Below are positions 6,051 through 47,473 of a stretch of 47,545 nucleotides of DNA, piece by piece. The DNA comes from Archaeoglobaceae archaeon (GTDB lineage Archaea; Halobacteriota; Archaeoglobi; Archaeoglobales; Archaeoglobaceae): contig JALWDS010000006.1 of NCBI GenBank assembly GCA_027036775.1, forward strand, positions 1-47,545, written 5' to 3'. Made by a program: the position numbers and the translations under genes. The notes under the pieces are model-generated. The model worked only from the letters and a program-made list of their open reading frames with translations, searched no databases and was not told where the DNA came from. Position 1 is the stretch's first letter. Every line of letters starts with the position of its first letter.

Positions 6051-6055
6051 TAAAA

Positions 6056-15353: not shown

Positions 15354-15452
15354 GCTAATATTTTGATTTTTCTTGAATTCTATTTTTATAGCGTTGGGTA
15401 TATATTTTAATTTTTAGTGGGATTAATATAATAGGTTTTTAAGTGTATATTG

Positions 15453-16355: not shown

Positions 16356-16514
16356 CTTAAGAACTGTCGGTTTCAATCATTATAAGCTTTGTTTTAGATT
16401 GTATGATTAATTTGACTCATGTACTATTATGCTCAATCTTGATAGCATTAGTTTGTCTAACGATAGGAATATTGATGGTTAGACAAGCGAAATAGCTTAA
16501 TGATAGAAGTTGGA

Positions 16515-16703: not shown

Positions 16704-16760
16704 AGCTATATCAAAAGATAGATGAAACATAATTTAACTTGTGAAAGAAGTAAGAGGAGT

Positions 16761-17318
16761 ATGAAGGTGCGGGTGGTAATTAAGGGGAAGGTGCACGATG
16801 TTAGGTATAGACCGTTTCTGCTTGGTATAGCTGAGTCGTTAGAGATTGAAAGATTTTTTGCTGATAATGTTTACGTTGATGGGAAGCAAGCGGTAGAAGT
16901 GCTGGTAGAAGATGAAGATGAAAAGGTTAAGGCCTTTGTTGAGTTTGTGAAGAAGAAAAAGCCTGAAAATGCTGAGGTTGAGAATATAGATGTTGAGGAA
17001 TACGATGGATATGTAATGAAGACGGAATCGTACTACCGCTACTTAACCGCTATGCAATTGGCTAAAATCGCTACCTATGGAGGGAAAATGTTACAAAAGC
17101 AAGACGAGACTATAAGAGTAATAAGAGAGGAATCTGAGAATATTAGAAAGGAGTTAGGGGCAAAGATTGATTCAGTTGGAAAGAAGGTAGAAGCTGTGGG
17201 GGAGAAAGTAGACCTGCTCAGATACGATTTGAGGGAATACATGGAAACGCATTTAAAGAAGATATACGCTGAAATAGCAGAAATTAAGAACGCTCTTAAG
17301 AAGGCCGGAATAATGTAG
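16761..17318 (+). CDS. Acylphosphatase-like domain fused to a coiled coil
   Basis: 185 residues. Residues 1-~85 (KVRVVIKGKVHDVRYRPFLL, then DGKQAVEVLVEDEDEKVKAF) follow the acylphosphatase fold, with R-Y-R in place of the usual G-F-R near the active Arg. Residues ~100-180 are a long amphipathic coiled coil with GAKIDSVGKKVEAVGEKVD-type heptads. GAGGAG directly precedes the ATG at 16761. Enzymatic activity is doubtful because the catalytic loop is altered; a role in binding or scaffolding is possible. A short decayed copy of the same coding sequence lies at 27957-28025. Confidence 0.7.
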   Translation: MKVRVVIKGKVHDVRYRPFLLGIAESLEIERFFADNVYVDGKQAVEVLVEDEDEKVKAFVEFVKKKKPENAEVENIDVEEYDGYVMKTESYYRYLTAMQLAKIATYGGKMLQKQDETIRVIREESENIRKELGAKIDSVGKKVEAVGEKVDLLRYDLREYMETHLKKIYAEIAEIKNALKKAGIM

Positions 17319-21900: not shown

Positions 21901-23758
21901 TGAGATTCGTAGGTTGAGGGATTGGTTGGATGCGAAGGGTGAACCTTGGATTGGATTAGTTTTTGCTTCTTTTGTTAGATCGAGTTTAAAGCATGAGAAC
22001 GTGGATTACATTGCCAGATTTATAAGTGAAAGAATAGGAGAAGAAGTTTTGTACTTCCACGGTCAGATGAGTCAATCTGAAAAAAGGGAAGTGATTAGTA
22101 AGCTTGAGAAGGTTGTTAAAGAGCTTAGCAAACCGAGAATTGTAGTAGCTACGAAAGCTTTTGGAATGGGTGTGGATTTGCCAAATATAAGGTTCGTAAT
22201 TCATGCTCATGTTTCGGATTCTATAGAGGATTACTATCAAGAAATTGGACGTGGGGGTAGGGATAGGAGAGAGAGCTATGCTATTACGATCTACTCACCA
22301 GATGATTTTAATGAAAAGAGGAGATTGATAAGACCGATAACGCTTAATCACGTCCGTAGGCTGATAGATATAATAAAAAGTGCTAAAGGGGCTAAAGGTG
22401 ACGGGAAAGAGGTAGTAATCCCGCTGAATCCGTTTTACAATTGTTTTGGTAGCGATGGTAAGATAGTTATAAAGAAGGTTTTGCAAATTTTGGAGTATAG
22501 CGAGCTAATTGAACACGAAATTACGAATGGTCGTCTTGTAGCGTATAAGATTCTGGAAGATGTTGATCTTGAAAGTGTGAGGGAAGCAATTATCCACTTT
22601 GATATGGGTGAAAATGTGATTGTCTTAGACCTTAATCGTCCTAAGCTTCTTGGGCCAATTATTGAGGATAGGTTACGAAGATGGGCTGAAAAAGGATTTG
22701 TTAAAAGGGTTGAATACTCGTGGAAGGTTGGAGATGTTGTAATAAACATAGGGGAGAAGGGTTCCAGATTTGAGATGTGCTATATTTTGTTGAAAGATGA
22801 CTTGAGTTTGGAGAAGGTTAGTCTTTCGAAAGAGTTTGAGTTTTACCAGCTTCAGCTTCAGAAGTCGTATCAATTGGAAGGATTTTTCGAGAAGATTTCC
22901 TCGTTGCTACCAGATAAGAGGAATGATGAGGCGCATAGGATTATTAGAACGTATTTGGAAGAGGGGATTGCTGATGAGTTTGAAAAGAAGTTCAAGGAGA
23001 AGTTAAAAGCGATTGAAAGAGAAATAGAGTGTTTAGGGGATAGAGCGGTTATTTTTGGCTTGATGGGAAGTGGTAAGACCGAAATACTGTCGAAAATTGC
23101 CACATACTATATTGCCAAGTATTCGGAAAGGGGAGTTTTGATAATATTGCCCGATCCGAGTAAGAGTGACATTGTTTCGAGGATCAAGGACAAGATTGGC
23201 TATGATGTAAATGTTAATGTGAGGTCTGCAAGGAGTGTAAGGTTTGAGGATTTGTTTGATTATGAGGTTATAATATTTGATGATGTTGATGTTGCTCTTG
23301 CTAAATCTCTTGTGGATGTTGATTTTCTGAATAAGATTACTACTCTTAATCGAAAGGTATACCTTACCGTGGATCCAATTATTTTAACAACATTCGGATA
23401 CTTTAATAAGATATTAGAGATATTTAACAGTTATAAGCTTACCGTTCTAAAGTCGGTTGAATTACCGTTTGATGTTATGGTTGATGGTTTTAATGTTAGA
23501 GTTATTCAGAGGGAAGTTTATGAAGCTAAGAGGCATAGACTTGCGAATAAAATAGTGAAATACCTTCCGGGTAAGTGTAGTGGTGCTCTTGAACCTGCGA
23601 TTAAACCTACTGGCGATGAGTACTATAGGTTGTTGTATTTGTGTCTTAAAGCTTCGACGGGAGTTCCTAAGGACTTGAAGGTCGATAAGAGGGAATTTGA
23701 AAAAACATTGACTGAGTGGGTGTGCTATTTATCAAGGGATAGATTAGAGCTTGGTTAA
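18998..23758 (+). CDS. Giant DEDDh exonuclease - RecQ helicase - second P-loop protein
   Basis: 1586 residues from GTG. Residues ~20-190 contain two tandem copies of an ~87-residue helical repeat (VCTDKDLK..., RFKEIL...KPELLRL). Residues ~195-335 are a DEDDh exonuclease (ALDLEIN; GHNVLNHDL; EHDPVEDAKA). Residues ~715-1110 are a RecQ-type helicase (LPTGAGKS near 754, DEVHCLSTWG near 856, QEIGRGGRD near 1081). Residues ~1350-1440 carry another Walker A (GLMGSGKT) and Walker B (IIFDD). The 340-710 segment is unassigned. The order resembles WRN (exonuclease then RecQ). Likely DNA processing in repair, replication or defence; transcribed alone. Confidence 0.85.
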   Translation: MIILYRILSKLPFNFSIFKKAKYICGYIDGKIGCSELLSVCTDKDLKWLISYFIERKDKRFKEILVHKPELLRLAEYTPFLKEVLEDYPEKLFDIIRVVGFINDVIIEEALKRDLVTLVSVCTDKDLKLLVDYLIERKDERFKEILAIKPELLRLSEYVGFWKEILIDYPEKTFEILDAVDFVEDARTVKEALKGGLVALDLEINPNDESFDAGGVVFSNDGRTVSFYYDKSKEDKFVGLLKVLSESNAILVGHNVLNHDLKFIRDKYNINFKNKVIDTLYLNCLVEPGARSRALSMLVQHSEHDPVEDAKASLILLRRLIRKIKEYGLEREAKELLADNPYVSGVPYVIDAFDSSVRYSKTVEEQSNGKRKLFVVVDWLGISNPWSPYVLDPSSYNPKTVWEKAGVFSALCAIKDPKCGCGDPNTFKKTWINDENTRKAILDVSKAVRRRELPKTSVETLSEYIPYLTEKFDEVELHDGELILSTISNLNEFFRLSDKVLAKVSLAKAYSDISETIGLEGVEFVDSGYNPVLLIPESSSLDPLNVASNVAGLLECLELPAVVLVSNDYEKALARRIFGYFCPAYMDYDLSAFRLAVENRGVVITDSFERIPTGFKTLVIFSDRSIIRGVSRENLCEKLCYGLMKVYGMARKLGVEYIAYLSFVGGTLSSLLRILEFGRVLSHANRKMYKRGALKGEVFVNVWNSVEDAVDYAENITEEIWGFRYRPYQRKSVAMLLSAYSLNRTTSPFGIVILPTGAGKSVIFQSVAVALHRKTGALTIVVSPLQALIQDQVESLKRRGVKVGRLDGTVSSYQRFKTILDAIFGNLEILYVTPERFERDEVKIILDCGNVGYVILDEVHCLSTWGSSFRPSYKYMAKMLASERKSRFLPIYGLSATLPKDVLKDVLDVLGISDVKEDEIDFDSDFSPEDVSKFRHNLILRGPAMRPEIKINIVKAKNDSDKLNRVVDEIRRLRDWLDAKGEPWIGLVFASFVRSSLKHENVDYIARFISERIGEEVLYFHGQMSQSEKREVISKLEKVVKELSKPRIVVATKAFGMGVDLPNIRFVIHAHVSDSIEDYYQEIGRGGRDRRESYAITIYSPDDFNEKRRLIRPITLNHVRRLIDIIKSAKGAKGDGKEVVIPLNPFYNCFGSDGKIVIKKVLQILEYSELIEHEITNGRLVAYKILEDVDLESVREAIIHFDMGENVIVLDLNRPKLLGPIIEDRLRRWAEKGFVKRVEYSWKVGDVVINIGEKGSRFEMCYILLKDDLSLEKVSLSKEFEFYQLQLQKSYQLEGFFEKISSLLPDKRNDEAHRIIRTYLEEGIADEFEKKFKEKLKAIEREIECLGDRAVIFGLMGSGKTEILSKIATYYIAKYSERGVLIILPDPSKSDIVSRIKDKIGYDVNVNVRSARSVRFEDLFDYEVIIFDDVDVALAKSLVDVDFLNKITTLNRKVYLTVDPIILTTFGYFNKILEIFNSYKLTVLKSVELPFDVMVDGFNVRVIQREVYEAKRHRLANKIVKYLPGKCSGALEPAIKPTGDEYYRLLYLCLKASTGVPKDLKVDKREFEKTLTEWVCYLSRDRLELG

Positions 23759-29935: not shown

Positions 29936-30976
29936 TTAACCTATTTCTTTGAGGATTTGTCTAATGGCGAGTAAGTCTAGGCGGGACTGAGGTTTGACGA
30001 TTCTGTTTACGGGTTCTAAGAAGAGTATGTTCTTTCTGATGCAGAACTTGAGAGCGTCGTCGATCTTAGCATACCTCATTACCTCTTTCTCGCTAATAGT
30101 CTTGAAGAGTTCGATTATTTTGTCGAATAGTTTTCTGTTCTCTTCGATCTCGTAGATAGTATCGAGAATCTGGCTATACCTAAGCTTGAGATTTTCTTCG
30201 CAGAATTCCTTTAGCCTGTGCCTATTGTTTACCGCTTCGACCAGATAAACTGGCTTACCGCCGAAGTAATTCCAAGTAAGTTCGATTTCTTTTTCGTCAA
30301 AGTTGTGCTTCTTGAGGAAGCTGACGGTAGTATCGTAGTCAAAATCATCGATGAGTAGGTACCTACACCTTCCGTGTAACATAGCTTCGTTGAATACTTT
30401 TTCGATGAATAGGGAATCAGAAGTGATAACGAATACATGGGCGATGTGGGATTCTTTAGTTAAGCCAACAAAGAAATTGAAGAGTTCGTATATGAGTAAA
30501 CCGTTAATTTTTACATCACCAAGCTTTTGGAGTTCGTCCAAAACAAGAACGGGTCTCTTACGTTTTGCAACCTCTCCCAGTAAGGATTCCAAGTAAACGA
30601 ACACGTTTTCCATTCTACTCTCTCTAAACAATTCTCTGAATACGTTTTTAGGGATAGGAATCCTACCGAAAGGTGTAAGGACTCCTTCAGGGACGTAAGT
30701 TTCGACGATCTCCTTAGCTATCGTCTTAACACTCGCTCTTTTGTTTCTAACGTCGAAGAGTACTTTTAGGAAGTCGTCTGCCTTGCTCACGTAAATGTGC
30801 CTCAGGCTGATGTAAAAGACCCTGTAGTCCTCAGGTAGCGTTCTAATAAGGTGTTGAAATAGTGTAGTCTTCCCTGAATTGATCGGTCCGTAAACAAATG
30901 TTATGAGGTTAGGAGTTGTCCCTAATATTCGCATTATTTCCTTAATCTCCTCCTCCCTGTCGTAAAATTCTATCAT
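29936..30976 (-). CDS. Arch_ATPase-family P-loop ATPase, paralogue 3
   Basis: 346 residues. Walker A GPINSGKTTLFQ near residues 30-41, Walker B with VLDELQKLGD near 145-155, then INGLLIYELFNFF, EAMLHGRCRYLLIDDFDYDTT and PQSRLDLLAIR at the C-terminus. It is closest to paralogue 1 in the first third (YVSKADDFLKVLFDV) but closest to paralogue 2 elsewhere, suggesting recombination between copies. GAGGTG lies at the usual distance from the ATG at 30976; the GTG one codon upstream is less likely. A palindrome cluster lies past its stop. Confidence 0.88.
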   Translation of the reverse strand: MIEFYDREEEIKEIMRILGTTPNLITFVYGPINSGKTTLFQHLIRTLPEDYRVFYISLRHIYVSKADDFLKVLFDVRNKRASVKTIAKEIVETYVPEGVLTPFGRIPIPKNVFRELFRESRMENVFVYLESLLGEVAKRKRPVLVLDELQKLGDVKINGLLIYELFNFFVGLTKESHIAHVFVITSDSLFIEKVFNEAMLHGRCRYLLIDDFDYDTTVSFLKKHNFDEKEIELTWNYFGGKPVYLVEAVNNRHRLKEFCEENLKLRYSQILDTIYEIEENRKLFDKIIELFKTISEKEVMRYAKIDDALKFCIRKNILFLEPVNRIVKPQSRLDLLAIRQILKEIG

Positions 30977-31366
30977 CACAACACCTCGTTCGGTTTAAAT
31001 ATTCGTTTAATTAACTTTAAATAATTCACCTTATTTCTGTGAGAGGTGTCCACTTTGCAGTAGTTCACAAGGTAACACGATTTGATAATGTAGTTAGCAT
31101 GAGTTAAGATTAGTCTTTAGCAAATTTTCTGGCGTAATTTTGTTAATATTCGTTTGTTAAATTGTTAAATTTTGTTGGAAACTAATTTCTTGTTAACCAA
31201 CGTTTGATTGCTACAAAGATCGCCAAAATATCAAAATAAATATTTACAATATAATAATACAATAACAAGATAACTATAACGCTTGTAAGGTCAAAAAATC
31301 GACGCTAAAGTATTAAAACTAGTAAGTCTGAATGCAATACTTCTTCATCTACTTTTTTATTAGGAT
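30977..31366. other. AT-rich noncoding interval
   Basis: No gene found. It holds a TATA-like ATATTTAAA near the start of ATPase paralogue 3 and tandem TTGTTAAAT words near 31160. No palindromes of the GATTAACC family occur from here to 45.3 kb. Confidence 0.5.
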
Positions 31367-32251
31367 TTAGACACTCTTTCTTTCAAATATGACTGAGTCT
31401 GCTCGCCCTCTGCTGGGGCTTTTATCAACTATATCGATCAAGCCTCTGTTATAAGCATAGACTAGATAAGCTTGTACTTTCGTTCTGCTACTTGCTTTCG
31501 TTCTTAAATCAGATTGTCTAAATCTACCAAGCTCTTTAGCAATTGAATCAATCTTTTCTATTTCTTCTCTACGTAGATTTGCTATTTCTCTACCATAAAG
31601 TAAGATTCTAACGACGTTGTCGTTTTCATTTATAATCTGACTAGTTAACAAAAGCTTTGGTAGATCCTTTTTAACATTAATTTCCTCTTTGGAATATATT
31701 TCTACCAACTTTTTCACTTTAGTGTCGCTTAGAATTTTCTCTTTAAGCTCTATAAGCTTGTCAAAGGCGTCTGTTCCATTGATGACATTTCTACCTTCTT
31801 CTGTCGGGCAGTACAATTGTTCAGCCTTTGAGTTTACTACTGTAATTTTCCTAATAAGTCCTTTCTCTTCAAGCTGTCTTAAAAAGTAGTATCTGTTTGG
31901 GAAATTCTTATCTTCCTCCATTCCAGCACACCTCAAAATCTCAAATATTAGGGAAGCTGGAACAGGTTTGTTCAAAATGGATTCGGCAAAAACTGTAGCT
32001 GCTAAGTACATTAGTTGCTTCTCCGACAAATCGATAGTACTCTCTTCGATTTCTCTGACGGTGTCCTCGAACTCCTTATATTCTTTATCAAAGTATCTAG
32101 TCTTCAATTCCATTATAAACTTCTCAGCATCTATTTTGTTACCATATCTCTTTCTAATGGCTTCCGACAATATCCAATCTTCCTTTGCTATAATGTCCAA
32201 ACTTATTCTCCGTAGAAATTCCTCCATTAGTGTTTTTTCGATGGCATTCAC
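31367..32251 (-). CDS. Helical protein with winged-helix-like region, 294 aa
   Basis: About 294 residues. All-helical N-terminus, a winged-helix-like centre (YYFLRQLEEKGLIRKITVV, then CPTEEGRNVIN), and a C-terminal part with LGRFRQSDLRTKASSRTKVQ and ending in a basic segment. No family recognised. The GTG at 32251 is taken because GAGGTG gives correct spacing. It is divergent from the 32378 gene across a promoter region with repeated CTATGCAT words. Its position beside the sulfur/SMC cluster suggests a regulatory or accessory part, unproven. Confidence 0.6.
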   Translation of the reverse strand: MNAIEKTLMEEFLRRISLDIIAKEDWILSEAIRKRYGNKIDAEKFIMELKTRYFDKEYKEFEDTVREIEESTIDLSEKQLMYLAATVFAESILNKPVPASLIFEILRCAGMEEDKNFPNRYYFLRQLEEKGLIRKITVVNSKAEQLYCPTEEGRNVINGTDAFDKLIELKEKILSDTKVKKLVEIYSKEEINVKKDLPKLLLTSQIINENDNVVRILLYGREIANLRREEIEKIDSIAKELGRFRQSDLRTKASSRTKVQAYLVYAYNRGLIDIVDKSPSRGRADSVIFERKSV

Positions 32252-32254
32252 ATT

Positions 32255-32377
32255 TTTCACCTCTATGCATTTAGCTTATCTATCTATGCATATTCATGAT
32301 TATCTAATGAATACGAGTATCCATCGTCTATACGTATGTATCGAAAATATAAATACCTTACTTTAGGGGGTGGGATA
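32255..32377. promoter_or_regulatory. Divergent promoter region with repeats
   Basis: CTATGCAT at about 32272 and CTATCTATGCAT at about 32281 (direct repeats), an ATACGTAT-type palindrome near 32331, and a TATA-like AAATATAAATA near 32345. A GGGGGTGG ribosome binding site lies before the ATG at 32378. It probably drives both flanking genes. Confidence 0.5.
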
Positions 32378-32848
32378 ATGGAAAACTTCTGGGAGAGCTT
32401 CTACGATGCCATAAAAGAAATGATATTCAGCGATAAGATCTATGTCTTTAGAGAAATTGTAAAAGAGCCAAAAACGATCAGGGAAATAGCAGAAGCAGTA
32501 GGAATGCCATACGTTACCGTGAGGAAATATATGAAATGGGCTTATGAGAGGGGGTTAGCTACAGTCGTTGGAACTAAGAAAGAAAGAGGAGCAATTTCTG
32601 AGAAATGGTTGCTTACATTTGTGCCTGAAGTCATCGATGTTAGGGAAGACAATCTTGTTGTTAAAATTAAGCTTAAAATTAAAATGAGAAAAGAGTTTTG
32701 CGAACAAATTTGTCCTTTCAAGGAGAAGTGTCCAGCTTACAAAAGATTGAGAAAAGGGGATGAAATATTACCCTATAGGGAAGTAGAAATCGAAAAAAGA
32801 AAATTTAGTGGAGAACAAATCGAATTGTGTAAACATCTGTCAAGATGA
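32378..32848 (+). CDS. Winged-helix regulator with Cys-rich (possible Fe-S) C-terminus
   Basis: 156 residues from the ATG at 32378 (an ATG 42 bases upstream is within the promoter). The N-terminal ~75 residues form a helix-turn-helix/winged helix (EPKTIREIAEAVGMPYVTV, KYMKWAYERG). The C-terminal part has FCEQICPFKEKCPAYKRL and LCKHL, four Cys spaced like iron-sulfur or zinc ligands. It may be a redox-responsive transcription factor. It is divergent from the 294-aa gene and convergent with the zinc-finger/SMC operon. Confidence 0.65.
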   Translation: MENFWESFYDAIKEMIFSDKIYVFREIVKEPKTIREIAEAVGMPYVTVRKYMKWAYERGLATVVGTKKERGAISEKWLLTFVPEVIDVREDNLVVKIKLKIKMRKEFCEQICPFKEKCPAYKRLRKGDEILPYREVEIEKRKFSGEQIELCKHLSR

Positions 32849-32911
32849 CTATCTTATGATTTAGATACTGGTACTCTTCTTGTTACAAGTAAATAACAAT
32901 TTATTTTATGT

Positions 32912-33829
32912 CTATCTTTTCCTTTCCCTTTCTACATCTCTTATTCGTTCTATCATTCTTTTTATATAATTATTTAAATCTTTATGTATTATAAATTCTT
33001 TCTCTTTTTCATCAAAATCTTCTATTAGTTTTGCATTACTATCTTTAATTCCTGTTATGTTAATATAAAATCTATTTTTAGATACTTTACTACCAAGAAT
33101 AGAAATTAAAGCTTGTAATTCTATATCAAGCAATCTAAACTCATTGATTCTATCAAGTTCGTCTGTTTTATCCTTATATTTTTGAATTACTGCAGAAAGT
33201 ATCTTAAATGTCACTAAGGGGATTCTTGGCAGGGGTGTATTTTCTTTTATATGTTTTTCTAATAATTTTTCAACTATACCAAGCATGAAAATAGCTTGGA
33301 TAGCTAAGGTATACGATTTCCAATTAAATGACGCAAAGTTATCACCGTATATTTTCTTTAAATCTAAAAGTGACTTTAGCATTTTTCCTGGAAATATTCT
33401 TCTATCAAGTGATATATCTATAATTTCTAATTCATAAAGATCTCTTAGAATTTGGTCTCTACTTCTGTGGGTATACTCAAGTTCAGTAACTTCTTCTATT
33501 TCAATTCCATTATATAGAGATTCGTCGTCTATAATGTAATACCATACAATTTCAGAGATTACTTTTTTATAAGCTAAAAAATATGGATAGTCTGCCAAAG
33601 TCTCAGTAATTTTTTCTGCTGCTTTTAATGCCCAATCGGGTGGCATTTTTCCTTCTCTCAGTGCCTCTGTAAGACAATCTTTTAATTCCCTTATTTGGAA
33701 GAGAGCATATTGACAGTTCTCACATAATTTATCAGTATGGCTTGGAAGCCCACAGAGTAAACAACGTTTTACTTTTACGAAGTATTTTCCATCAAAAACC
33801 CAGCGGTCATTATTGTTTTCGTTATCCAT
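32912..33829 (-). CDS. Zinc-finger protein of the SMC/AAA operon, 305 aa
   Basis: 305 residues. N-terminal C-x2-C pairs (CLLCGLPSHTDKLCENCQ, near residues 20-40) form a zinc ribbon; the rest is helical (about residues 50-300) with no known motif. Last gene of the leftward operon, starting 14 bases after the SMC-like gene. ATG 33829 has an AGGGAG ribosome binding site. The first protein of the operon (292 aa) also begins with a zinc ribbon, so the system has two zinc-ribbon proteins. Function unknown. Confidence 0.65.
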   Translation of the reverse strand: MDNENNNDRWVFDGKYFVKVKRCLLCGLPSHTDKLCENCQYALFQIRELKDCLTEALREGKMPPDWALKAAEKITETLADYPYFLAYKKVISEIVWYYIIDDESLYNGIEIEEVTELEYTHRSRDQILRDLYELEIIDISLDRRIFPGKMLKSLLDLKKIYGDNFASFNWKSYTLAIQAIFMLGIVEKLLEKHIKENTPLPRIPLVTFKILSAVIQKYKDKTDELDRINEFRLLDIELQALISILGSKVSKNRFYINITGIKDSNAKLIEDFDEKEKEFIIHKDLNNYIKRMIERIRDVERERKR

Positions 33830-33842
33830 CACCAAACACTCC

Positions 33843-35807
33843 CTACTTAATAACTTTAACCCTCAAATCACCATCCTCAAAAGTGGTCTTTGTTAGCAAA
33901 ATTGTGACATTTTCTTGCTTTGCGTATTCTAATAGTACTTTTAATATCTCATTAGTTCTATACTCATCAAAGTATTCATACATGTTATCTATTACAATGT
34001 AGTTAACACCTTCTCTGTAAACCTTGTTAAGTGCCAACATAAGAACAAGAGCCACTGACACCCTCTCGGACTCGCTAAGAGCGTGTGGCTGTATGATTTT
34101 CACTTCACCTTCTGGAGATACATATTGAACATTTAAGATATAATTCTTGTCGAGATAAATTCTTTTGAACTCGCTGAAACCAATTCTTCTAAGAACGTCT
34201 TGTACCATGTTGTTAAACTGTTTCATAGCCTCTCTTCTTATCTTTTCAGCCATTTCGAGGGCGTACTTTTTAGCACTATTTATCCCATCCAAAGCTTGTT
34301 CTATCAATTTAATGGCATCATCAAGCTCTAATGAAATTCCATAGATTTCTACGTATCCTGCTGTAATATATTCCGATTCCTTTCTTGTTAACAATTGCTG
34401 TTTTTCCTCAAGAAGTTTCGTAACTCTGTCTATCTCTTCGATCAATTCTGGATTCTCTTTTCTTAGAAGGTCATTAAGAGTTTTAATTTCTTCAGATATT
34501 TTATCAAGCTTAGCTTTTTTATCTTTGAGCTCTTGTAGGGTATTGTCAATTTCTGACTTTTTATAATCTAGTTCTTGTTGTATAATACTTCTTTCAGACA
34601 CTACATCATCTAGTCTATTTTTAATATCTCTTAGCTCCATTTCAAGACGTCTTCTATGATTTTCCATCTCCTCTTTAGATCTTGCAAGGTTTCTAAGCTC
34701 ATCTTCGATTTTGGAGATATTTTCTTTTATAGCTCTTAATTTATCTTCAAGTTTTTCTCTTGTAACATTTCCTGTTTCACAGAGAGGGCATTTTGAATAA
34801 CCTTCCTTCACGCTATCAAGAGCAATATAGTACAAATCTGCCAGTGCCTGTAGTCTGATTCTCTCATCTTGTAACTGTCTTATTTTTTCGTCAAGTTCTG
34901 AGAAATCGAGAGGTTTGGATAATTCAGATTCAATGTTTTCTTTTCTTTTTTTAAGTCGTTCTTCCTCTTCTTGTAATTCCTTAATCTTACTTTCAAGATT
35001 TTTGAGTTCATTCTTTAGACTGCTTAAATTCTTTTCAATACTTTGTACTTCCTTTTGTAAGTTTCTTTTAGTCTTTTCTAGAGTTTCTAGTCTCTTTTTT
35101 ATTTCTGAAATTTCTCGTCTTTTTTGCTCATTATCTGCTTTAATCATTTTTATTAACTCATCCTTTTTCTTCTGTAGCTCTTCAATTTCCTTTTCTAATT
35201 GCTTTATCTCTTTTTTTAGATTTGGTATAAGGGCCTTTTTCTTTTTTAGCTCATTTAACTTCTGGAATAAAGCTGAATAATACTCTTGCAATAAATCACT
35301 AGCTCTTATATATTTGTCAGCCTTCACTGATAGCTTCGTTATGTAATTCTTGAAAATTGATTCATTTCTCATTTCATTTGGGCTACTAATTGCTCTGTAT
35401 ATCCATGAATTTGGTGTAAGAACTCCAATCAGTAAGAAGTTAGAGTTAGCATGTTTATCTGGTTCGATTTTCCCTGTTTTCTCGATTATTACTCTTCTTT
35501 CTACATTCCCTTCCTTTAACTTAACTTCAGCATGTGTTGCATTTGCATGAATTATTCCTGCCCTATGTCCTCCCCTTTCTGGTAGCACACCCAGATTTGA
35601 TGCTTCTAATCGCCAAATATTACCATGACTTTCACGTAGAACTTTATCATCTATACCAAGTACAGCCATTAAAGCTTTAGCTACGCTGCTTTTTCCTGTT
35701 GCATTCGCACCTTCTAATATATTTAGAGTGTTTTTAGAAAGTGTGAATATTTTCTGTCCTTCAAGACCTCCTACATTTGAGATTTCGAGAATAATTTCAT
35801 TACTCAT
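33843..35807 (-). CDS. SMC/Rad50-like zinc-hook ATPase (DndD- or ASRP-like)
   Basis: 654 residues. Residues ~20-45 hold a P-loop (GANATGKSS), residues ~170-540 form two long coiled coils, a CPLC zinc hook sits near residues 340-343, and the C-terminus has ALSESERVSVALVLMLAL (signature) and VNYIVIDNMYEYFDE (Walker B/D-loop). This is the SMC/Rad50 layout at a shorter length (Rad50 ~880), similar in size to DndD and to the haloarchaeal archaea-specific SMC-related proteins (NVGG...NATG motif). The ATG at 35807 follows GGAGGTG. It probably binds and remodels DNA ends or modified DNA together with the operon's AAA+ ATPase. Confidence 0.8.
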   Translation of the reverse strand: MSNEIILEISNVGGLEGQKIFTLSKNTLNILEGANATGKSSVAKALMAVLGIDDKVLRESHGNIWRLEASNLGVLPERGGHRAGIIHANATHAEVKLKEGNVERRVIIEKTGKIEPDKHANSNFLLIGVLTPNSWIYRAISSPNEMRNESIFKNYITKLSVKADKYIRASDLLQEYYSALFQKLNELKKKKALIPNLKKEIKQLEKEIEELQKKKDELIKMIKADNEQKRREISEIKKRLETLEKTKRNLQKEVQSIEKNLSSLKNELKNLESKIKELQEEEERLKKRKENIESELSKPLDFSELDEKIRQLQDERIRLQALADLYYIALDSVKEGYSKCPLCETGNVTREKLEDKLRAIKENISKIEDELRNLARSKEEMENHRRRLEMELRDIKNRLDDVVSERSIIQQELDYKKSEIDNTLQELKDKKAKLDKISEEIKTLNDLLRKENPELIEEIDRVTKLLEEKQQLLTRKESEYITAGYVEIYGISLELDDAIKLIEQALDGINSAKKYALEMAEKIRREAMKQFNNMVQDVLRRIGFSEFKRIYLDKNYILNVQYVSPEGEVKIIQPHALSESERVSVALVLMLALNKVYREGVNYIVIDNMYEYFDEYRTNEILKVLLEYAKQENVTILLTKTTFEDGDLRVKVIK

Positions 35808-35937
35808 ATTTTGCACCTCCTTTTATTAACTCTTTAATTTGTTCTTCAATTTTTTTCTTCATCTGAACGTCGGTGATCTCTCCTTTAACGAATGTATCAA
35901 CTAACTCTTTTAAAGAATTCGCAAACTTATTTCTCAT
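35800..35937 (-). CDS. 45-aa mini-protein overlapping two neighbours
   Basis: 45 residues, below usual gene-finding limits. The ATG overlaps the end of the 143-aa gene and the stop overlaps the start of the SMC-like gene, so all three are translationally coupled. It is helical with FANSLKELVDTFVKGEITD and a Lys-rich end. No motif recognised. Conserved overlap at both ends supports reality. It might be a small adaptor, comparable in place (not sequence) to DndE. Confidence 0.6.
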   Translation of the reverse strand: MRNKFANSLKELVDTFVKGEITDVQMKKKIEEQIKELIKGGAKYE

Positions 35938-36325
35938 TTAGAATCACCTCCTTTACTAATCTTCTCGAAACTAAAACGTAGTAATCGCCAAACCATTCTG
36001 GTGTTCTACTTTTCTTTCTCTCTTCCAATATTTCAAACAACTTCCTATAAAATTCATGGGTTGCATTCTTTATTAGATACTTATATTCACCACCTTTAGC
36101 TTTTCCCGCTTTGCCTTTCACTTGAGTTGGAGAAATGTATCGCGTTAGAGCATATTCTAAAGGATTTATCTCGTCTACGTATTCTCTCAATTCACGCGTT
36201 AAAGTGTCTCTTAGCCATCTTCTGGCATCATTCTGAACATTGCCTTTTAGAGTTCTGAAATAGATTCCTACAATTAAAATTCCATTTCTCATACTCTCAT
36301 CAAACCACTCTGGCGTTTCACTCAT
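35927..36325 (-). CDS. Hypothetical protein of the SMC/AAA operon, 132 aa
   Basis: 132 residues from the ATG at 36325, which follows GGAGGGTG and overlaps the AAA+ stop codon. It has a strand-rich start (NGILIVGIYFRTLKGNVQND), an Arg-rich helix (ARRWLRDTLTRELREYVDE), and a basic centre (KGKAGKAKGGEYKYLI). No family recognised. Spacing and overlap show it is part of the operon. The basic character suggests nucleic-acid contact. Confidence 0.6.
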   Translation of the reverse strand: MSETPEWFDESMRNGILIVGIYFRTLKGNVQNDARRWLRDTLTRELREYVDEINPLEYALTRYISPTQVKGKAGKAKGGEYKYLIKNATHEFYRKLFEILEERKKSRTPEWFGDYYVLVSRRLVKEVILNEK

Positions 36326-37043
36326 GTATTTCACCCTCCGAGACGTAATTGAACACAAAGAGTGCTATCTCGTATAATACACCTCTTAGGTCTATTATTT
36401 TCTTTGTGTTTATTTTATCTCTTATTTTTGATGCAATTTCCATTTTTACATCTTCAGGTATCTCTATTCTAACTAATGTCTTATCTAAGAGCTTGTATAA
36501 TTCCTCCTTTGGAACTTCAGGAATTTCGATTAGGTAAAACCTCGACTTTAAAGCATCGTCTACAAGATCTATCCTGTTAGTAGTAGAAAGAACTATGCAT
36601 TTACTTGGGTCGAGGAAATCAAGAGCATGGAATAAGACTGAGTTTATTGAGTAGTGCCACTCCTTAGCTATGTCTGCCCCTCTGCTCATCATTAGACTTT
36701 CTATGTCATCAAAAATGATTATTCGTCTCTCGTAATCTGATATTTCAAATACATCCCTTAACTTCTTTTCGGCATCACCCCATTTTGGGGAGGCAATATC
36801 AGCTCCATCGATGAATAATATTTTTACGTTTGGATAAGCTTCTGCCACTTTTTTGCTCACTTGTTTTACTATTTCACTTTTTCCTGTTCCAGGAGGTCCA
36901 TATAGCAAAAAACCTTTAAAGGGTAAGTAGCTATATTCCCCACTAAACAGCCACGTTATTACATTGTATATTTTCTTGAAAACTTTTTTTTGGTAGTCTA
37001 AAAGCTCAACTTCTTTTATTGTAAATGGGTCAAGTTCGGTCAA
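36318..37043 (-). CDS. AAA+ ATPase of the SMC operon
   Basis: 241 residues. Walker A (YGPPGTGKSEIV) near residues 45-56, Walker B (IIIFDDIES), sensor 1 (VLSTTNRID) and an arginine-bearing helix give a classical AAA module. Length fits one AAA domain plus a small helical lid. Start is TTG at 37043 with GGTGAG upstream; the start overlaps the previous gene's stop. In a modification or defence system it would act as remodeller or loader. Alternative: replication-related ATPase. Confidence 0.85.
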   Translation of the reverse strand: MTELDPFTIKEVELLDYQKKVFKKIYNVITWLFSGEYSYLPFKGFLLYGPPGTGKSEIVKQVSKKVAEAYPNVKILFIDGADIASPKWGDAEKKLRDVFEISDYERRIIIFDDIESLMMSRGADIAKEWHYSINSVLFHALDFLDPSKCIVLSTTNRIDLVDDALKSRFYLIEIPEVPKEELYKLLDKTLVRIEIPEDVKMEIASKIRDKINTKKIIDLRGVLYEIALFVFNYVSEGEIHE

Positions 37044-37908
37044 TCTCTCTCACCCTCTCACCGTATATTCTCTCTAAGGTATGTATCAACTCCTCTCTAA
37101 CAATAAACCTAACTGTGTTTCCACTGGGTTGAATGTTTTCAATATATTGCTGTAGTGAGTGTGGACTTGTTGCCTTTAACGCGGCGATGTAGTTTGAGAT
37201 TGTTATGGGAGATAAGTTCCTCTTTGTAAAGAATCTTCTAATTTCTTCCTCGTTGAACTCTTTTTTAATACTACCTCGGACTCTCTCAGTCCAAAGAAAC
37301 ATTGTGGCTACCCATGGAGCTTTTGGTGTATGTGTTCCGAAGTGACGTAAAATTTCGTCTTGTGTTCTGGCATTTGCAAGTATATACATTTCATGCAAAA
37401 CTACATACATTGTTAGAACAGCAGCAACTCGTATCTTGGCTTGTTCTTGTGTTCTATATGGCCTATATGCCTCATCAATGAACCTTTTAAGTATAATATC
37501 TGGTTTTATAATCCTTTTTATTTTGTCTGGAGATTCAATTTTGATTATACCTGCCTCCTCCATAGATTGTAGTATTTTTAAGATATTTCTGGAAGACTTC
37601 GTTCGCCTCCAAAGTTCGTCATAGTCGATTTCATTTTTACCTTTAACAGCAAACTCCTCTAACAATTCTTTAACAATCGTCGAGTAAACGGAGAGTTTTG
37701 GATTTTTCTGCACTATGAAATATGTATTTTTTAGCAATTCAAAAATATCTGTCTTTTCTATCGGTTTAGAAGTATCAGAGAATGTGTTTTTAGCTTCCTC
37801 ATATAGTGTTCTAATAGCTTCTTCATGTATTTTACAGTCTCTGCATATATAATCCCCTGAACTTCTTGTTTTCCTACTAACCGTTACCCCACACTTTATA
37901 CATTTCAT
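37030..37908 (-). CDS. Zinc-ribbon and winged-helix protein, first gene of the SMC/AAA operon
   Basis: 292 residues. CIKCG near residue 3 and CRDC near residue 22 form a TFIIB-like zinc ribbon. The remaining helical regions include SSRNILKILQSMEEAGIIKI (winged helix) and KRNLSPITISNYIAALKATS (helix-turn-helix-like). The overall layout (zinc ribbon followed by helical repeats) recalls archaeal TFB-type factors, but the homology is not clear. It opens the operon and overlaps the AAA+ gene by 14 bases. The ATG at 37908 is preceded by GGTGAG. It may be the DNA-specificity or regulatory part. Confidence 0.65.
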   Translation of the reverse strand: MKCIKCGVTVSRKTRSSGDYICRDCKIHEEAIRTLYEEAKNTFSDTSKPIEKTDIFELLKNTYFIVQKNPKLSVYSTIVKELLEEFAVKGKNEIDYDELWRRTKSSRNILKILQSMEEAGIIKIESPDKIKRIIKPDIILKRFIDEAYRPYRTQEQAKIRVAAVLTMYVVLHEMYILANARTQDEILRHFGTHTPKAPWVATMFLWTERVRGSIKKEFNEEEIRRFFTKRNLSPITISNYIAALKATSPHSLQQYIENIQPSGNTVRFIVREELIHTLERIYGERVREIDRT

Positions 37909-38019
37909 CCTTTACTCACCACCATCTACCTTTTACTACTTAAATTTTATCCTATATAAACTTTATTTTCCTTGAATCAAGGTAAAGTTATTAAACAGCC
38001 ATTTTAAATCATATTAACG
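37909..38019. promoter_or_regulatory. Divergent promoter between the SMC operon and the PAPS-reductase-like gene
   Basis: A 111-bp AT-rich region. A TATA-like ATTTTAAAT near 38001-38009 lies about 15-20 bases before the rightward ATG; a TATA-like ATATAAACTTT-type element serves the other side. Shared divergent promoters often mark genes with a linked function. Confidence 0.5.
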
Positions 38020-39093
38020 ATGCTACTAAAGGAAAAAGAGATTGAAGCTATGTATTTCCTCAGACAGTTTCCCATTGATAGAGTGGCTGTGAGCTTTTCT
38101 GGAGGTAAAGATAGCTTAGTTGCTTTACATCTTGCATCTAGAATAGGAATACGAAAAGCTGTATTTTGCGATACTACAATTGAATCTCAGAAAGTAATAG
38201 AATTTGTAAAAGAAGTGGAAACAATTCTTGGGGTTAAAATTGACATTGTCAAACCAAAAAAATCTTTCTGGGAATTAGTACATCTTTTAGGAGTGCCCTC
38301 TGTGCATAATCGATGGTGCTGTCCAACTATAAAATTCCAACCATTAAACGAGTATGCAAGAAAACATAAGATTGAATACTATGTCACTGGACTTAGAAGG
38401 GAAGAGAGTGTGATAAGAAAAGAATACAAGAAAATAGAGGTAAATCCTATGCTTCCTCATGTTATCCAGTTAAACCCGATAGTTGAGTGGAGTGAAAAAG
38501 ATGTGTGGGAATACATTAGAAAGTACGAGCTACCAATACCTCCAGGATATGAAAATGGGTTACTAAGAAACGGTTGTGTTATATGTCCCTATAAATCTCC
38601 TAAAGAGTTAGGAAAGGTTAAAAAACTAGAGCCAGAAATGTGGGAAAGGTTTGAAGAATTCCTAAACTACTATGCCCACATTTCTGGAATTCCAGATAAG
38701 AATAGATTTATTGAAAGTGGATGGAGATCGTGGAGACCACCCGTAAAACGAAAGATTGTCGGAAAAATCAAAGTAAATGAAAGTGGAATAGTATTGACAA
38801 ACGGGCTTGAAAAAAGAAACTTCAAGCTTTTGAAAATACTAAAGAAAGATGATCCAGACAAACTGAAAAAAGCAAAAATTTTGATAGAAAAAGAACTGAA
38901 TTGTATTGGGTGCGGAGCTTGTTTATCATTATGCCCCACTGGAGCTCTTTATATAAATAGAGAAGGACTAATTGATGTAGATATAGGAAAGTGTACTCAC
39001 TGCTATGAATGCTTAAACTCTTCAAAGCTAAGAGGAGGATGTATTGGGAGAAATTATAAACTTGAAGTTTTTATTGTAGACGTTGAGAATTAA
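38020..39093 (+). CDS. PAPS-reductase-like PP-loop enzyme fused to a ferredoxin domain
   Basis: 357 residues. SGGKDS at residues 27-32 is the PP-loop ATP-pyrophosphatase motif, followed by RREES near residue 130. Cys100, Cys101, Cys186 and Cys189 match the iron-sulfur ligands of PAPS/APS-reductase-family enzymes. Residues ~290-345 are a 4Fe-4S ferredoxin domain with C295, C298, C301, C305 and C325, C328, C331, C341. DndC-type DNA-phosphorothioation enzymes belong to the same superfamily, as do tRNA-thiolation and sulfate-assimilation enzymes. No sulfate-assimilation genes occur here. It is divergent from the SMC/AAA operon across a 111-bp promoter. Confidence 0.82.
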   Translation: MLLKEKEIEAMYFLRQFPIDRVAVSFSGGKDSLVALHLASRIGIRKAVFCDTTIESQKVIEFVKEVETILGVKIDIVKPKKSFWELVHLLGVPSVHNRWCCPTIKFQPLNEYARKHKIEYYVTGLRREESVIRKEYKKIEVNPMLPHVIQLNPIVEWSEKDVWEYIRKYELPIPPGYENGLLRNGCVICPYKSPKELGKVKKLEPEMWERFEEFLNYYAHISGIPDKNRFIESGWRSWRPPVKRKIVGKIKVNESGIVLTNGLEKRNFKLLKILKKDDPDKLKKAKILIEKELNCIGCGACLSLCPTGALYINREGLIDVDIGKCTHCYECLNSSKLRGGCIGRNYKLEVFIVDVEN

Positions 39094-41769: not shown

Positions 41770-41914
41770 TCTACAATCTACAAAAGATGATCTATAATAG
41801 ATTATAGATTATCTACTATCTACTGTACTACGATATACGATATTATGATAGGTCACAGATTGTCGATTGTCTACGATCTACGATAGAGAAAAGATTATCT
41901 ATGATCTACGATAG
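41770..41914. repeat. Centromere-like repeat field before partition operon 2
   Basis: TCTAYRATCTACRA-type repeats at 41770-41786, 41870-41886 (TCTACGATCTACGATAG) and 41898-41914 (TCTATGATCTACGATAG), with related ATCTACTATCTAC and TCTATAATAGATTATAGA words between. The last two copies are 28 bases apart and end 13 bases before the parA ATG. The pattern fits a parS or operator array for the following ParB-like protein. Confidence 0.6.
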
Positions 41915-41927
41915 ATTTAGAATGATG

Positions 41928-42680
41928 ATGCGAATAGCTGTTGCGAACCACAAGGGCGGTGTTGGAAAAACGACTACTGCTATAAATCTTGGAACGTATT
42001 TAGCGTTAAAGGGAAAAAGGGTTCTGCTGATAGACCTAGATCCGCAAGCCTGTTTGACTTTAGGGCTTGGTATTGACGCTTCGGAAATGGACACGACAGC
42101 GTACGAGCTGTTTTTAGGTAAGAATGTAGACGAATGTATAATTGAGACGGAAGTTGAACGATTACATCTGATACCGAGTAAGCTGGACTTAGCTGGAGCG
42201 GAGGTAGAACTCACGAACGAGATAGGTAGAGAATTCATTCTGAGCAAAGCGCTAAAAAAGTTGGAAGGTTACGACTACGTTCTAGTAGATTGTCCGCCGA
42301 ATTTAGGTTTGTTCACGATAAACGCAATGGTTGCCTGTAGAAACGTGCTCGTTCCCGTCCAAGCGGAGTACTTCCCGTTAAAGGGCGTCGATCAGTTAGA
42401 AAGAGTCGGAGAAAAGATTAGAGAAGGATTGGACATTCCTGTTAAGTTCAGATACCTCATTACGATGGTCAATCAGAGGACTAAGCTTGGTAAGGATGTA
42501 ATCAAGGAAATTAGAGAGAAAAAAGGAGATGTCGTGTTTAAGACGGTAATCCCAAGAAACGTCAAGCTTGCGGAAGCACCGTCTCATGGTAAACCTATCG
42601 CCTTGTACGATCCAGAGTGTAAGGGTGCCCTCGCTTACAGCAAGCTAGCTGAAGAGGTGATGACCCTTGAATGGTGGTAA
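41928..42680 (+). CDS. parA: ParA/Soj-type partition ATPase, operon 2
   Basis: 250 residues from the ATG at 41928 (MRIAVANHKGGVGKTTTAIN). Walker A KGGVGKTT near residues 9-16, LLIDLDPQACLTLGL and YVLVDCPPNLG are clean ParA features. The partner begins 13 bases before the stop. It differs from the ParA at 25.1 kb in most of the sequence, so two partition systems are present. Start codon chosen because the ATGs upstream would lengthen it beyond the family's usual N-terminus. Confidence 0.9.
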   Translation: MRIAVANHKGGVGKTTTAINLGTYLALKGKRVLLIDLDPQACLTLGLGIDASEMDTTAYELFLGKNVDECIIETEVERLHLIPSKLDLAGAEVELTNEIGREFILSKALKKLEGYDYVLVDCPPNLGLFTINAMVACRNVLVPVQAEYFPLKGVDQLERVGEKIREGLDIPVKFRYLITMVNQRTKLGKDVIKEIREKKGDVVFKTVIPRNVKLAEAPSHGKPIALYDPECKGALAYSKLAEEVMTLEWW

Positions 42681-43035
42681 AAAAGGGAAAGGAATAGATG
42701 CACTGCTACCATCCGCGAAAAAAGTGGAAGAAAACGAGAAAAAGAAGGAGATAACAGTTATAACTATAAGTAAAGGAGAAAGAAAGGTATTAGTTGGTAA
42801 AGAGGAAATAGAAAAAGTCATAAAAATTGTTAAGAAGAAAAGAAACGTCTCGACTACCGATCTATTCACGAGGATTTGCATGGAACTACTGAAAGAAACA
42901 GTCCCTCGTTTTAACGCTTCAGAGGAGGTTGGCAAGATCGTACGAGAGTATTATCTCAAAAACAACAAAGAATTTGCAAGAATTGTTGAGAACATCATAG
43001 ATAAAATTGAAGAAGAGAGTGGAAAAAGAGGTTAG
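42667..43035 (+). CDS. ParB-like partition partner with KGIDALLP motif
   Basis: 122 residues. The N-terminal GKKGKGIDALLPSA matches the ParA-interaction motif of ParB proteins (GLGRGLDALLP). The C-terminal ~60 residues (TDLFTRICMELLKETVPRF, EVGKIVREYYLKNNKEF) look like a ribbon-helix-helix or helical DNA-binding part. TTG 42667 is preceded by GAGGTG and overlaps parA by 14 bases. It is the likely binder of the repeat field upstream. Confidence 0.8.
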   Translation: MNGGKKGKGIDALLPSAKKVEENEKKKEITVITISKGERKVLVGKEEIEKVIKIVKKKRNVSTTDLFTRICMELLKETVPRFNASEEVGKIVREYYLKNNKEFARIVENIIDKIEEESGKRG

Positions 43036-43056
43036 ATCCTTCATAATTAAATTGGT

Positions 43057-44196
43057 TTATAAATCCTTTAGAATGGATTCTTTTAGCGCTTCTTCAACTA
43101 TCTTCCTATCTAAGGTATCATTTAAATATATTTGCCAAGCTGTTCCCATTCCACGACCTCTTCCTCTTCTAACATATATTACAAATCCATAAAGTTCCAA
43201 GTCACTCAACAGACTTGATAGTCTCCTGTGAGAAAGAGTTTCACCTCTATACTTTAAGAGATATTCGTTACAAATAGAATAGATTTCTCGGGGACTTGCG
43301 CCCTCGTTCCTCAGAACTGCAAGAAGCAAGAATTTCTGGACTAAGCTAAGATTCAATATACTTTGTTTTATAAAATCTTCTTCAACTTTTCTTCTAGCTA
43401 TTTTAACATGCTGTGCCGTGACCTTATTACTACCTTGCCTAATTGCTTCATCTCCAGCGTAAAGTAGTAAGTCAAGAGCGTATCTTGCATCTCCTTCTCT
43501 TTCTAATGCCGCTAGAGATGCACAAAGAGGAATTACTTCCTCATCCAACACACCTTCATAAAATGCCATTTTAGCTCTATATTGTAGTATATCCTGCAAT
43601 TGAATAGCATTATATTTAGGAAAAACTATCTTAATTGGATTAAAAGATGAAAGAACTCTTTTGTCATTTATTAAATCCATAACATTGATCTTATTGGAAA
43701 GTGCAATCGTGCAAATTTTCTCCTCTCTGGATAGAAAATAAAGTAGATCTGAACCATGAAATAGCATTTTGTCAACTTCATCCAATACAACTATGGTAAC
43801 TTTCTCTTTACTCAAAATTTTTTTAAATCTATTCCAAGCTTCTTTAAAGCTGATACCTCTAAAATTAACTTGTGGATTTAATTCGTATGCTATATCGTTT
43901 AAGACTTGAAAAGGAGTTCCGTTAGCTATTACATAAGAAATGTCAACAATGTTACCAGCTACCTTAGCAAGTTCATTTAAAACCTTTTTTACCGTTACAG
44001 TTTTACCAGTACCAGTATGCCCCAAAATAAGTAAATTCGGAGGAGTGTATCCCTTTAAAGCGTGCTTTAGATAAGATGCCAACTCTCTAATCTCTCTGTC
44101 TCTATGAGGAAGCTCATCCGGTATAAATCTATGAGACAAAACATCTCTATTCTTATATATATCAGGAACTTCATCGAATATGGAAGCCGTACCCAC
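43057..44196 (-). CDS. Orc1/Cdc6 replication initiator
   Basis: 379 residues from the GTG at 44196. HRDREIRELASYL precedes Walker A (GHTGTGKT), Walker B (VVLDEVD), sensor 1 (IALSNKIN) and a lid, and a C-terminal winged helix (SLVQKFLLLAVLRNEGASPREIYS, LSSLLSDLELYGF). These are the archaeal Orc1/Cdc6 features. The protein binds ORB elements and loads the MCM helicase. The start overlaps the first ORB-like box, implying autoregulation. The origin lies immediately upstream. Confidence 0.92.
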   Translation of the reverse strand: MGTASIFDEVPDIYKNRDVLSHRFIPDELPHRDREIRELASYLKHALKGYTPPNLLILGHTGTGKTVTVKKVLNELAKVAGNIVDISYVIANGTPFQVLNDIAYELNPQVNFRGISFKEAWNRFKKILSKEKVTIVVLDEVDKMLFHGSDLLYFLSREEKICTIALSNKINVMDLINDKRVLSSFNPIKIVFPKYNAIQLQDILQYRAKMAFYEGVLDEEVIPLCASLAALEREGDARYALDLLLYAGDEAIRQGSNKVTAQHVKIARRKVEEDFIKQSILNLSLVQKFLLLAVLRNEGASPREIYSICNEYLLKYRGETLSHRRLSSLLSDLELYGFVIYVRRGRGRGMGTAWQIYLNDTLDRKIVEEALKESILKDL

Positions 44197-47105: not shown

Positions 47106-47426
47106 ATTTACCAAACCCTTGTGTAATTTAGTTTAGTGGTTTGGTAAAACTGAGGGGATGGTCGTCAATGACGTTGTTAAAGCTGGGAGGGGAGGGGGGC
47201 TTTGGTTGAAGTGACGACGGTGAAGTGCGGTAGAGAACTGCAAGTGGTAGAGGTGTTTTGAGGAGTTCAGAACTCTTCACTACTCCTCAGTTCTCCTCAC
47301 TACTCCTCAGTAGTTTACAGTAACTTACAGTAAGTTACGGTAAATTACTGTTATAGTATTCTCCAGCGAGTGATTAACTGCTATGGTTAGTCACATTAGC
47401 GATTGATTAACCGTAGTGGTTAATCA
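47106..47426. repeat. 321-bp direct repeat, copy 2
   Basis: Same sequence as 10288-10608, as far as can be compared by eye with no difference, including both palindromes (47372-47392 and 47405-47425). The flanks are unrelated except at the borders, which begin near ATTTACC and end at the palindrome. No gene is seen in 47042-47545. Confidence 0.9.
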
Positions 47427-47473
47427 AATTGTGCGGGGTAATGTCATGCTCCATTCCATGTTTTCTTATGTTT

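Follow-up and report, generated by a model that had tools for sequence, protein, structure and literature searches.

The 47,545-b contig C6 (JALWDS010000006.1) of an Archaeoglobaceae archaeon (assembly GCA_027036775.1), which was analysed whole and is referred to here as the window, carries a cassette of seven genes at 32912-39093 that is conserved beyond chance and has been transferred as a unit. Six of the genes run leftward and encode, among others, a coiled-coil ATPase of the archaea-specific SMC-related protein (ASRP) family and a small AAA+ ATPase; the seventh diverges from them and encodes a PP-loop enzyme with a ferredoxin domain. No publication describing the operon was found in literature searches, and the view that the cassette is an undescribed conserved unit is supported. 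We tentatively read it as a mobile, co-regulated ASRP/AAA+ module acting on DNA, with a recruited sulfurtransferase, probably for DNA marking and defence, and give this reading slightly less than an even chance.

The arrangement of the genes (Table 1) is as expected for a single operon facing a divergent partner. Counted from the 292-residue gene on, the leftward genes overlap by 14, 8, 11 and 17 nucleotides (nt) and are then separated by a gap of 7 nt, and the starts of the enzyme gene and the 292-residue gene lie 111 base pairs (bp) apart in opposite directions, with a palindrome in between. An earlier note on this DNA had placed all seven genes correctly and had described both the close packing and the common promoter region. 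The span that it gave, 31367-39093, holds for 32912-39093; the genes for the 297- and 170-residue proteins lie outside the conserved cassette.

Comparison with other genomes provides the main evidence for a unit. The host genome (1.53 Mb, 99.9% complete) was compared with others of its order, 57 genomes of Archaeoglobales in all, and the cassette was found collinear in a second one, a metagenome-assembled genome (MAG) also labelled Archaeoglobaceae archaeon (G042, or locus L088 in our named collection), at positions 32968-39223 of contig C27. Amino acid identity between the two copies is 55-90%, with the AAA+ ATPase at 90%, the 292-residue protein at 84%, the 132-residue protein at 78%, the enzyme at 77%, the ASRP at 76%, the 305-residue protein at ~62% and the 45-residue protein at 55%. 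The ratio of nonsynonymous to synonymous substitution rates (dN/dS) is 0.03-0.24 across all seven genes, including the 45-residue reading frame, with synonymous sites near saturation, and all seven are under purifying selection. Matches in blastn between the two contigs are confined to window positions 32915-39080, and outside the cassette their proteins share just weak AAA/Cdc6-type matches. A conserved, selected and collinear block on contigs that are otherwise unlike points to a transferred cassette. Next to the G042 block lie an integrase of the tyrosine-recombinase type and an Orc1/Cdc6-like gene that is broken, both named by reading translations.

Loss has also been joint. Among the 57 genomes, the full-length enzyme is confined to the two cassettes, and a scar in genome G040 (L150 6887-7171, contig C9) consists of 110 bp of the ASRP 5' region fused directly to 147 bp of the enzyme 3' end, which implies that the cassette was once present there and collapsed through internal deletion. 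The earlier note had allowed for homologues that occur only as unlinked genes; the cassette genes stay linked. Its proposal of a conserved, undescribed unit stands, the block being collinear, under selection and without a paper of its own, while for the sulfur target that it attached to this unit we still rely on inference.

Linkage of the enzyme to the operon extends beyond the order. When GTDB contigs were scanned once with the AAA+ profile, 21 loci were found, and five loci have the full set including the enzyme: the window, L088, L089, L090 and L073. L089 is a 12.5-kb contig from a MAG labelled Actinomycetota that is possibly mis-binned, and its 292-residue gene is frameshifted as read. 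L090 belongs to a 1.9-Mb contig of Hydrothermarchaeum profundi, and L073 to a 2.2-Mb contig of genome G076 (family f5), which appears to be Methanosarcinales-like. The enzyme gene is divergent and upstream in the window, G042 and L089, and co-directional, downstream and last of the operon in L090 and L073. Retention of this linkage despite a changed gene order argues for a functional tie. Furthermore, the promoter palindrome CCTTGAATCAAGG has kept its position in G042 and also, apart from one mismatch, in L089; the host genome (G000) and the G042 genome each contain no other copy. A single putative operator controlling both directions would tie the enzyme to the operon, and the winged-helix proteins of the cassette may be candidates for binding it.

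It is very improbable that the PP-loop enzyme is a hitch-hiker next to the operon with no common role. Such an explanation could draw on the ASRP-AAA+ operons without the enzyme and on locus L102, where the enzyme alongside may instead be part of a BREX-like system, but it has to contend with linkage at five loci in at least three lineages and two gene orders, with the one common operator and with co-decay in G040. In addition, the system enzymes score ~590-606 bits to one another, as against 265 bits for the next archaeal copy found. The linked loci, the two gene orders and the operator bear out the assignment of the enzyme to the unit in the earlier note.

Related operons show which parts travel without the enzyme. 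Two Dehalococcoidia MAGs (L094 and L095) have the AAA+, C-position, D-position, ASRP and zinc-finger genes but lack both the first zinc-ribbon gene and the enzyme. Another type of operon (L097, L098, L099, L101, L103, L104) has counterparts of protein A, the AAA+ ATPase, protein C, the ASRP and mostly micro-protein D, with no enzyme within the sequence covered. The zinc-ribbon proteins of enzyme-linked and enzyme-less types are distantly related (E 4e-5, probability 70%), and homology between their C proteins is not detectable. In L091 and L092 the operon is interrupted by contig ends, and in G020 (L037) the core is present on a short contig. Searches with the ASRP by tblastn against plasmids and phages, and a scan of viral contigs, gave no matches. 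L102, from Nanoarchaeota, was set aside as a linked case, its enzyme grouping with BrxP and its neighbours being BREX-like. At 3146-17251 it presents a defence-like island with a DrmD/HmaA-like helicase, DarT, an ASRP operon and the BrxP-like enzyme in a row, together with weak NucS-like and BrxC/D-like genes.

Table 1. Features of the cassette, its promoter region and two accessory genes, in window coordinates.
Feature	Position	Strand	Basis
PP-loop ATP-pyrophosphatase/PAPS-reductase-domain enzyme with C-terminal dicluster ferredoxin domain, 357 residues	38020..39093	+	PF01507 5e-37 and Fer4
Shared divergent promoter region	37909..38019	.	palindrome CCTTGAATCAAGG at 37970-37982
Protein A, zinc-ribbon / two-winged-helix-like, 292 residues	37030..37908	-	AlphaFold model; homologous to the 305-residue protein
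AAA+ ATPase B, single-domain classic type, 241 residues	36318..37043	-	PF00004 2e-21
Protein C, predicted S6/RRM-like ferredoxin fold, 132 residues	35927..36325	-	AlphaFold, Foldseek
Micro-protein D, charged, helical-looking, 45 residues	35800..35937	-	dN/dS 0.24 against G042
ASRP, SMC-like ATPase with CxxC zinc hook, 657 residues	33843..35816	-	NF045487 1.5e-88
Zinc-finger protein, paralogue of the 292-residue protein, ~305 residues	32912..33835	-	reciprocal profile matches
Accessory, outside the core cassette: helix-turn-helix protein with C-terminal Cys cluster, 170 residues	32336..32848	+	66% identical in G003:C8
Accessory, outside the core cassette: winged-helix protein, 297 residues	31367..32260	-	2/57 genomes, both near ASRP

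Features of the enzyme itself suggest chemistry. Its PF01507 domain, of the 3'-phosphoadenylylsulfate (PAPS) reductase type, is followed by a Fer4 region, and the PP-loop SFSGGKDS and 12 cysteines do not vary among the five system enzymes and that of L102. Of the cysteines, the catalytic domain contributes CC...CxxC, and the ferredoxin part CxxCxxC(x3)C and CxxCxxC(x9)C. Its nearest solved relatives, the assimilatory PAPS and adenylylsulfate (APS) reductases, have a degenerate loop, SSSFGIQ or SFSGAED, where the enzyme has SFSGGKDS, and the ECG motif is absent from the five enzymes examined. Identity with assimilatory (P)APS reductases was rejected on these two features, which together point, from what is established for N-type ATP pyrophosphatases, to a probable ATP-using adenylating sulfurtransferase rather than a PAPS reductase.

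Phylogenetic analysis (IQ-TREE, 45 sequences including BrxP, methanogen PRK13795 and DndC, with SspD and the tRNA-thiolation enzymes outside its scope) unites the system enzymes and one enzyme from a Methanobacterium congolense plasmid in a group with support of 99/96; monophyly of the system enzymes alone is not rejected (approximately unbiased test, p 0.19). BrxP, methanogen PRK13795 and DndC are placed elsewhere, DndC being the most distant, although branches are long and the deeper branching order is unsure. The earlier note had considered a grouping with assimilatory reductases; the enzyme groups neither with these nor with housekeeping reductases and forms a separate lineage. The plasmid enzyme (L170 8908-10053, on the 18-kb plasmid II) is the nearest outside the system, and no ASRP or AAA+ gene is annotated near it. 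Archaeal PAPS reductases of the PRK13795 type (NF010366-NF010369) share the catalytic and ferredoxin domains, with NF010367 scoring 209.7 bits, but the cassette enzyme lacks their ~220-residue N-terminal part and the methanogen housekeeping copies belong to another clade.

The layout of the enzyme is shared with proteins of DNA phosphorothioation. A PAPS-reductase domain, an a+b domain and a ferredoxin-type region make up BrxP of type-4 BREX, which is based on phosphorothioation, and a subset of SspD, and their middle segment has a Mog1p/PsbP fold (PMC12839542). The cassette enzyme has the same domain order, PAPS-reductase, middle segment and 4Fe-4S ferredoxin-type region. The strongest case for DNA sulfur chemistry comes from this likeness, which is one of architecture. 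BrxP is its best PADLOC model at 162 bits, as against 756-1003 bits for true archaeal BrxP, and the cassette lacks the PglZ, BrxC, BrxL or DUF4007 partners. Membership of the BrxP/SspD group was rejected, the enzyme forming a lineage separate from BrxP in a tree without SspD sequences; an SspD family search in archaea gave no matches anywhere and was uninformative. A further combination of these domains was seen at L153 35-2501 (G219:C83), where a DUF4007 gene overlaps a gene for a 550-residue PAPS-reductase/ferredoxin protein; no further gene of BREX or Ssp type was seen on the 8-kb contig.

The PP-loop resembles those of RNA-thiolating enzymes in general. The cassette might be a unit of RNA or tRNA thiolation, or of other sulfur metabolism, in which the ATPases would serve the iron-sulfur enzyme as chaperones or remodelers. 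Apart from the PP-loop, the predicted RRM/S6-like fold of protein C would suit such a role, as would the lone AAA+ relatives in three thaumarchaeal MAGs (L100, L105, L106), which adjoin TusA, sulfur-transport, thioredoxin-like or DUF169 genes (annotated partly by reading) and are a hint, as an independent pointer, to sulfur. We nevertheless consider this explanation improbable: the cassette is mobile, rare (2/57 genomes) and lost in relatives, unlike housekeeping thiolation, it is constantly accompanied by an SMC-like ATPase of DNA type and by two winged-helix proteins, and the tree separates its enzyme from the methanogen housekeeping paralogues.

The SMC-like protein is assigned, on sequence criteria, to ASRP and not to DndD. 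It matches NCBIfam NF045487 with 297.9 bits over the whole model, just below the 300-bit cut-off, and has the Walker A, signature and Walker B motifs of the head and a CxxC zinc hook; head motifs, hook and length are those of known members such as ClsN (coalescin) and Sph. A profile search with ASRP heads matches Rad50 and SMC heads in the PDB. Known members either lack fixed partners or have different ones, such as RdfA in the case of Sph3, in contrast with the conserved AAA+/zinc-ribbon/C/D operon found here. A survey of the family found no consensus in flanking genes (PMC9389158), and the operon appears new in that light. The cassette member also differs in Walker B, where it has Asn for the glutamate (D-N in place of D-E). 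This glutamate is lost in all six enzyme-linked ASRPs, L102 included, and kept in all eight readable ASRPs of unlinked AAA+ operons, a correlation that rests on two independent contrasts, with haloarchaeal Sph proteins also lacking it, and that may serve as a lead only. Across the family, Walker B reads DS or DG in haloarchaeal Sph-type ASRPs (L038-L067, L077-L087), DN or DD in enzyme-linked ones and DE in the others.

The nearest solved relatives of the AAA+ ATPase are Cdc48/VCP, and its Walker B has DD for DE, as DDIES in the window and DD[IAC]ES in six of six aligned homologues. The 292- and 305-residue families find each other in reciprocal profile searches and are paralogues. The AlphaFold model of the former (predicted local distance difference test, pLDDT, 84; predicted template modelling score, pTM, 0.87) has a zinc ribbon and two winged-helix-like units, of which the first matches solved winged-helix proteins; no whole-fold relative emerged, the fold search giving no match below E 0.09. 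Protein C, 132 residues from a conserved ATG or 143 from an upstream TTG, is modelled as b-a-b-b-a-b (pLDDT 81, pTM 0.74), with ribosomal protein S6 as best Foldseek match (E 5e-4). A charged reading frame of 42-56 residues occupies the slot of D in most related operons.

Both the ASRP and the setting of the cassette bear on another possibility, that of a module for chromosome or episome organisation, partition or cell shape, comparable with ClsN or Sph3-RdfA. The functions of ClsN and Sph3 are known (PMC9389158, PMC10869688), and ParA-like and Orc1/Cdc6-like genes at 41901-44196 of the window suggest that the contig is its own replicon or derived from one. This possibility is also improbable, since the cassette is found on the megabase contigs of L090 and L073 as well, a sulfur enzyme has no place in it, and the proteins at the RdfA position have no detectable relation to the zinc-ribbon proteins. 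For the latter, RdfA-like identity was rejected in an alignment of RdfA-position proteins (hhalign E 0.09), and so was DUF4007-like identity (hhalign E 0.11).

Comparison with established systems leaves the cassette outside each of them. The earlier note had set the enzyme and the ATPase beside DndC and DndD, and this pairing was not supported: the ATPase is an ASRP, and DndC, at ~40 bits, is the most distant group of the tree. DndC identity was rejected with TIGR03183 at 36.7 bits (cut-off 290), DndC models at ~40 bits and a separate clade; DndD identity with models at ~19 bits, the coiled coil being the best stretch; and Pbe membership with no PbeA helicase-nuclease in the cassette and models of PbeC, a CxC ABC ATPase, at ~23 bits, mainly in the coiled coil. 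What the Dnd and Pbe systems do share with it is a logic, a PP-loop sulfur enzyme together with a zinc-hook coiled-coil ATPase and small proteins, but no DndA, B, D, E or PbeA was recognised in the cassette, the DndD and PbeC matches being weak (19-23 bits), and the Dnd analogy is only functional. Of the profiles that the note had recommended, that of ASRP matched (297.9 bits), and searches of the cassette proteins found no Dnd, Ssp or Pbe partner. DndB, DndE, a cysteine desulfurase and a nickase, which the note had failed to see, were likewise not recovered, the profile searches finding no Dnd partner, desulfurase or nuclease. There was no DndE (MetJ-Arc) family match for the small proteins, C being predicted RRM-like and D too short for exclusion, and no match to PglZ or BrxL among the cassette proteins.

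The most serious competitor is immunity or plasmid restriction of the Lamassu/Wadjet kind, in which the ASRP and AAA+ ATPase would sense foreign DNA and act on it, with the iron-sulfur enzyme as a sensor, regulator or effector that writes no DNA mark. Among PADLOC models the ASRP scores highest with LmuB (88.6 bits), the SMC subunit of Lamassu and an SMC-type ATPase within a mobile, defence-like unit; core operons without the enzyme exist, and patchy distribution, transfer and decay would fit. We regard it as rather unlikely, with no nuclease subunit (LmuA, JetD) recognised in the cassette and with the invariance of the PP-loop and all cluster cysteines of the enzyme, which suggests chemistry. 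Lamassu membership was rejected, LmuB being matched without an LmuA effector, and the AAA+ ATPase and sulfur enzyme have no Lamassu counterpart.

Modification of DNA with sulfur by the cassette is the reading that we favour, by analogy and with some reserve, at a little under an even chance. In it, a core of ASRP, small classic AAA+ ATPase, RRM/S6-fold protein C, the ~45-residue D and DNA-binding zinc-ribbon/winged-helix proteins would, in this subtype, have recruited a sulfurtransferase of BrxP/SspD architecture. The winged-helix pair would find the DNA, the ASRP would clamp it and the AAA+ ATPase would load or remodel the clamp. The PP-loop enzyme would then adenylate its target with ATP and deliver sulfur from its iron-sulfur clusters, with electrons passing through the ferredoxin domain. 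The sulfur, most likely in the backbone, would mark the DNA as self, and the ATPase complex would act on unmarked invading DNA. Defence-like or mobile neighbours are consistent with this purpose at L089 (McrB-type AAA_5 and HNH genes), L073 (a helicase) and L094 (a tyrosine-recombinase-type integrase), as well as at L102 and G042. A more specific version would be a new archaeal architecture for DNA sulfur marking that combines a clamp formed by the ASRP, a mini-AAA+ of the Cdc48 kind and, as DNA readers, the paralogous zinc-ribbon/winged-helix proteins. It would draw on inorganic sulfide instead of a cysteine desulfurase, and its ASRP would have lost the catalytic glutamate because the protein clamps DNA for the sulfur enzyme. 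In its entirety this version seems to us unlikely.

Several observations weigh against DNA marking. Enzyme-less related ASRP-AAA+ operons exist (L094, L095, L097, L098, L104), and the enzyme is therefore not required by the core. Profile searches recognised no nuclease or other effector among the cassette proteins, nor any SspB/DUF4007, BrxC, DndD or DndE homologue, and of the ASRPs characterised so far, the nearest ones serve to organise chromosomes (ClsN) or are involved in cell shape (Sph3) (PMC9389158, PMC10869688). Lastly, the host genome has no recognisable cysteine desulfurase, with a best PF00266 score of 77 bits and 36 bits for the NifS model against a cut-off of 530, and transferred sulfur would have to come from sulfide. 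An anaerobe living in sulfidic habitats could plausibly draw on such a supply.

Next to the cassette, the gene for the 297-residue protein occurs in 2 of the 57 genomes searched, in both near an ASRP and the same transposase. The pair with the 170-residue gene recurs in the same relative order in G003:C8 3795-9400 (L034), with a 79% identical remnant of that transposase on one side and chromosomal-looking genes on the other, and there the cargo consists of another ASRP accompanied by DprA-like and ComF-like genes (both named by reading). The arrangement suggests a single site at which the ASRP cargo can be exchanged. Elsewhere in the window, three regions (132-1226, 11070-12113 and 29936-30979) are mutually alike, with DNA pieces 74-81% identical, and encode proteins of 347-364 residues, the third an MJ1010-like ATPase. 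A 1586-residue DEAD-box helicase at 18998-23758 resembles DpdF-type helicases (224 bits), and a 652-residue protein at 3451-5409 fuses a helix-turn-helix domain to a methyltransferase domain. A direct repeat of 329 bp, 99.4% identical, lies at 10288-10615 and 47106-47434, one copy close to the contig end, and there are no tRNA genes in the window.

As a family of SMC proteins, ASRPs occur widely among archaea, and apart from ClsN and Sph their role has yet to be established; the cassette supplies a conserved context of six to seven genes for one of them. The presence of a sulfur enzyme in a conserved ASRP operon makes the function of these proteins directly testable. If DNA is indeed marked, the cassette would add to Dnd, Ssp and type-4 BREX another way of making sulfur-modified DNA, and would do so in a host without a recognisable cysteine desulfurase.

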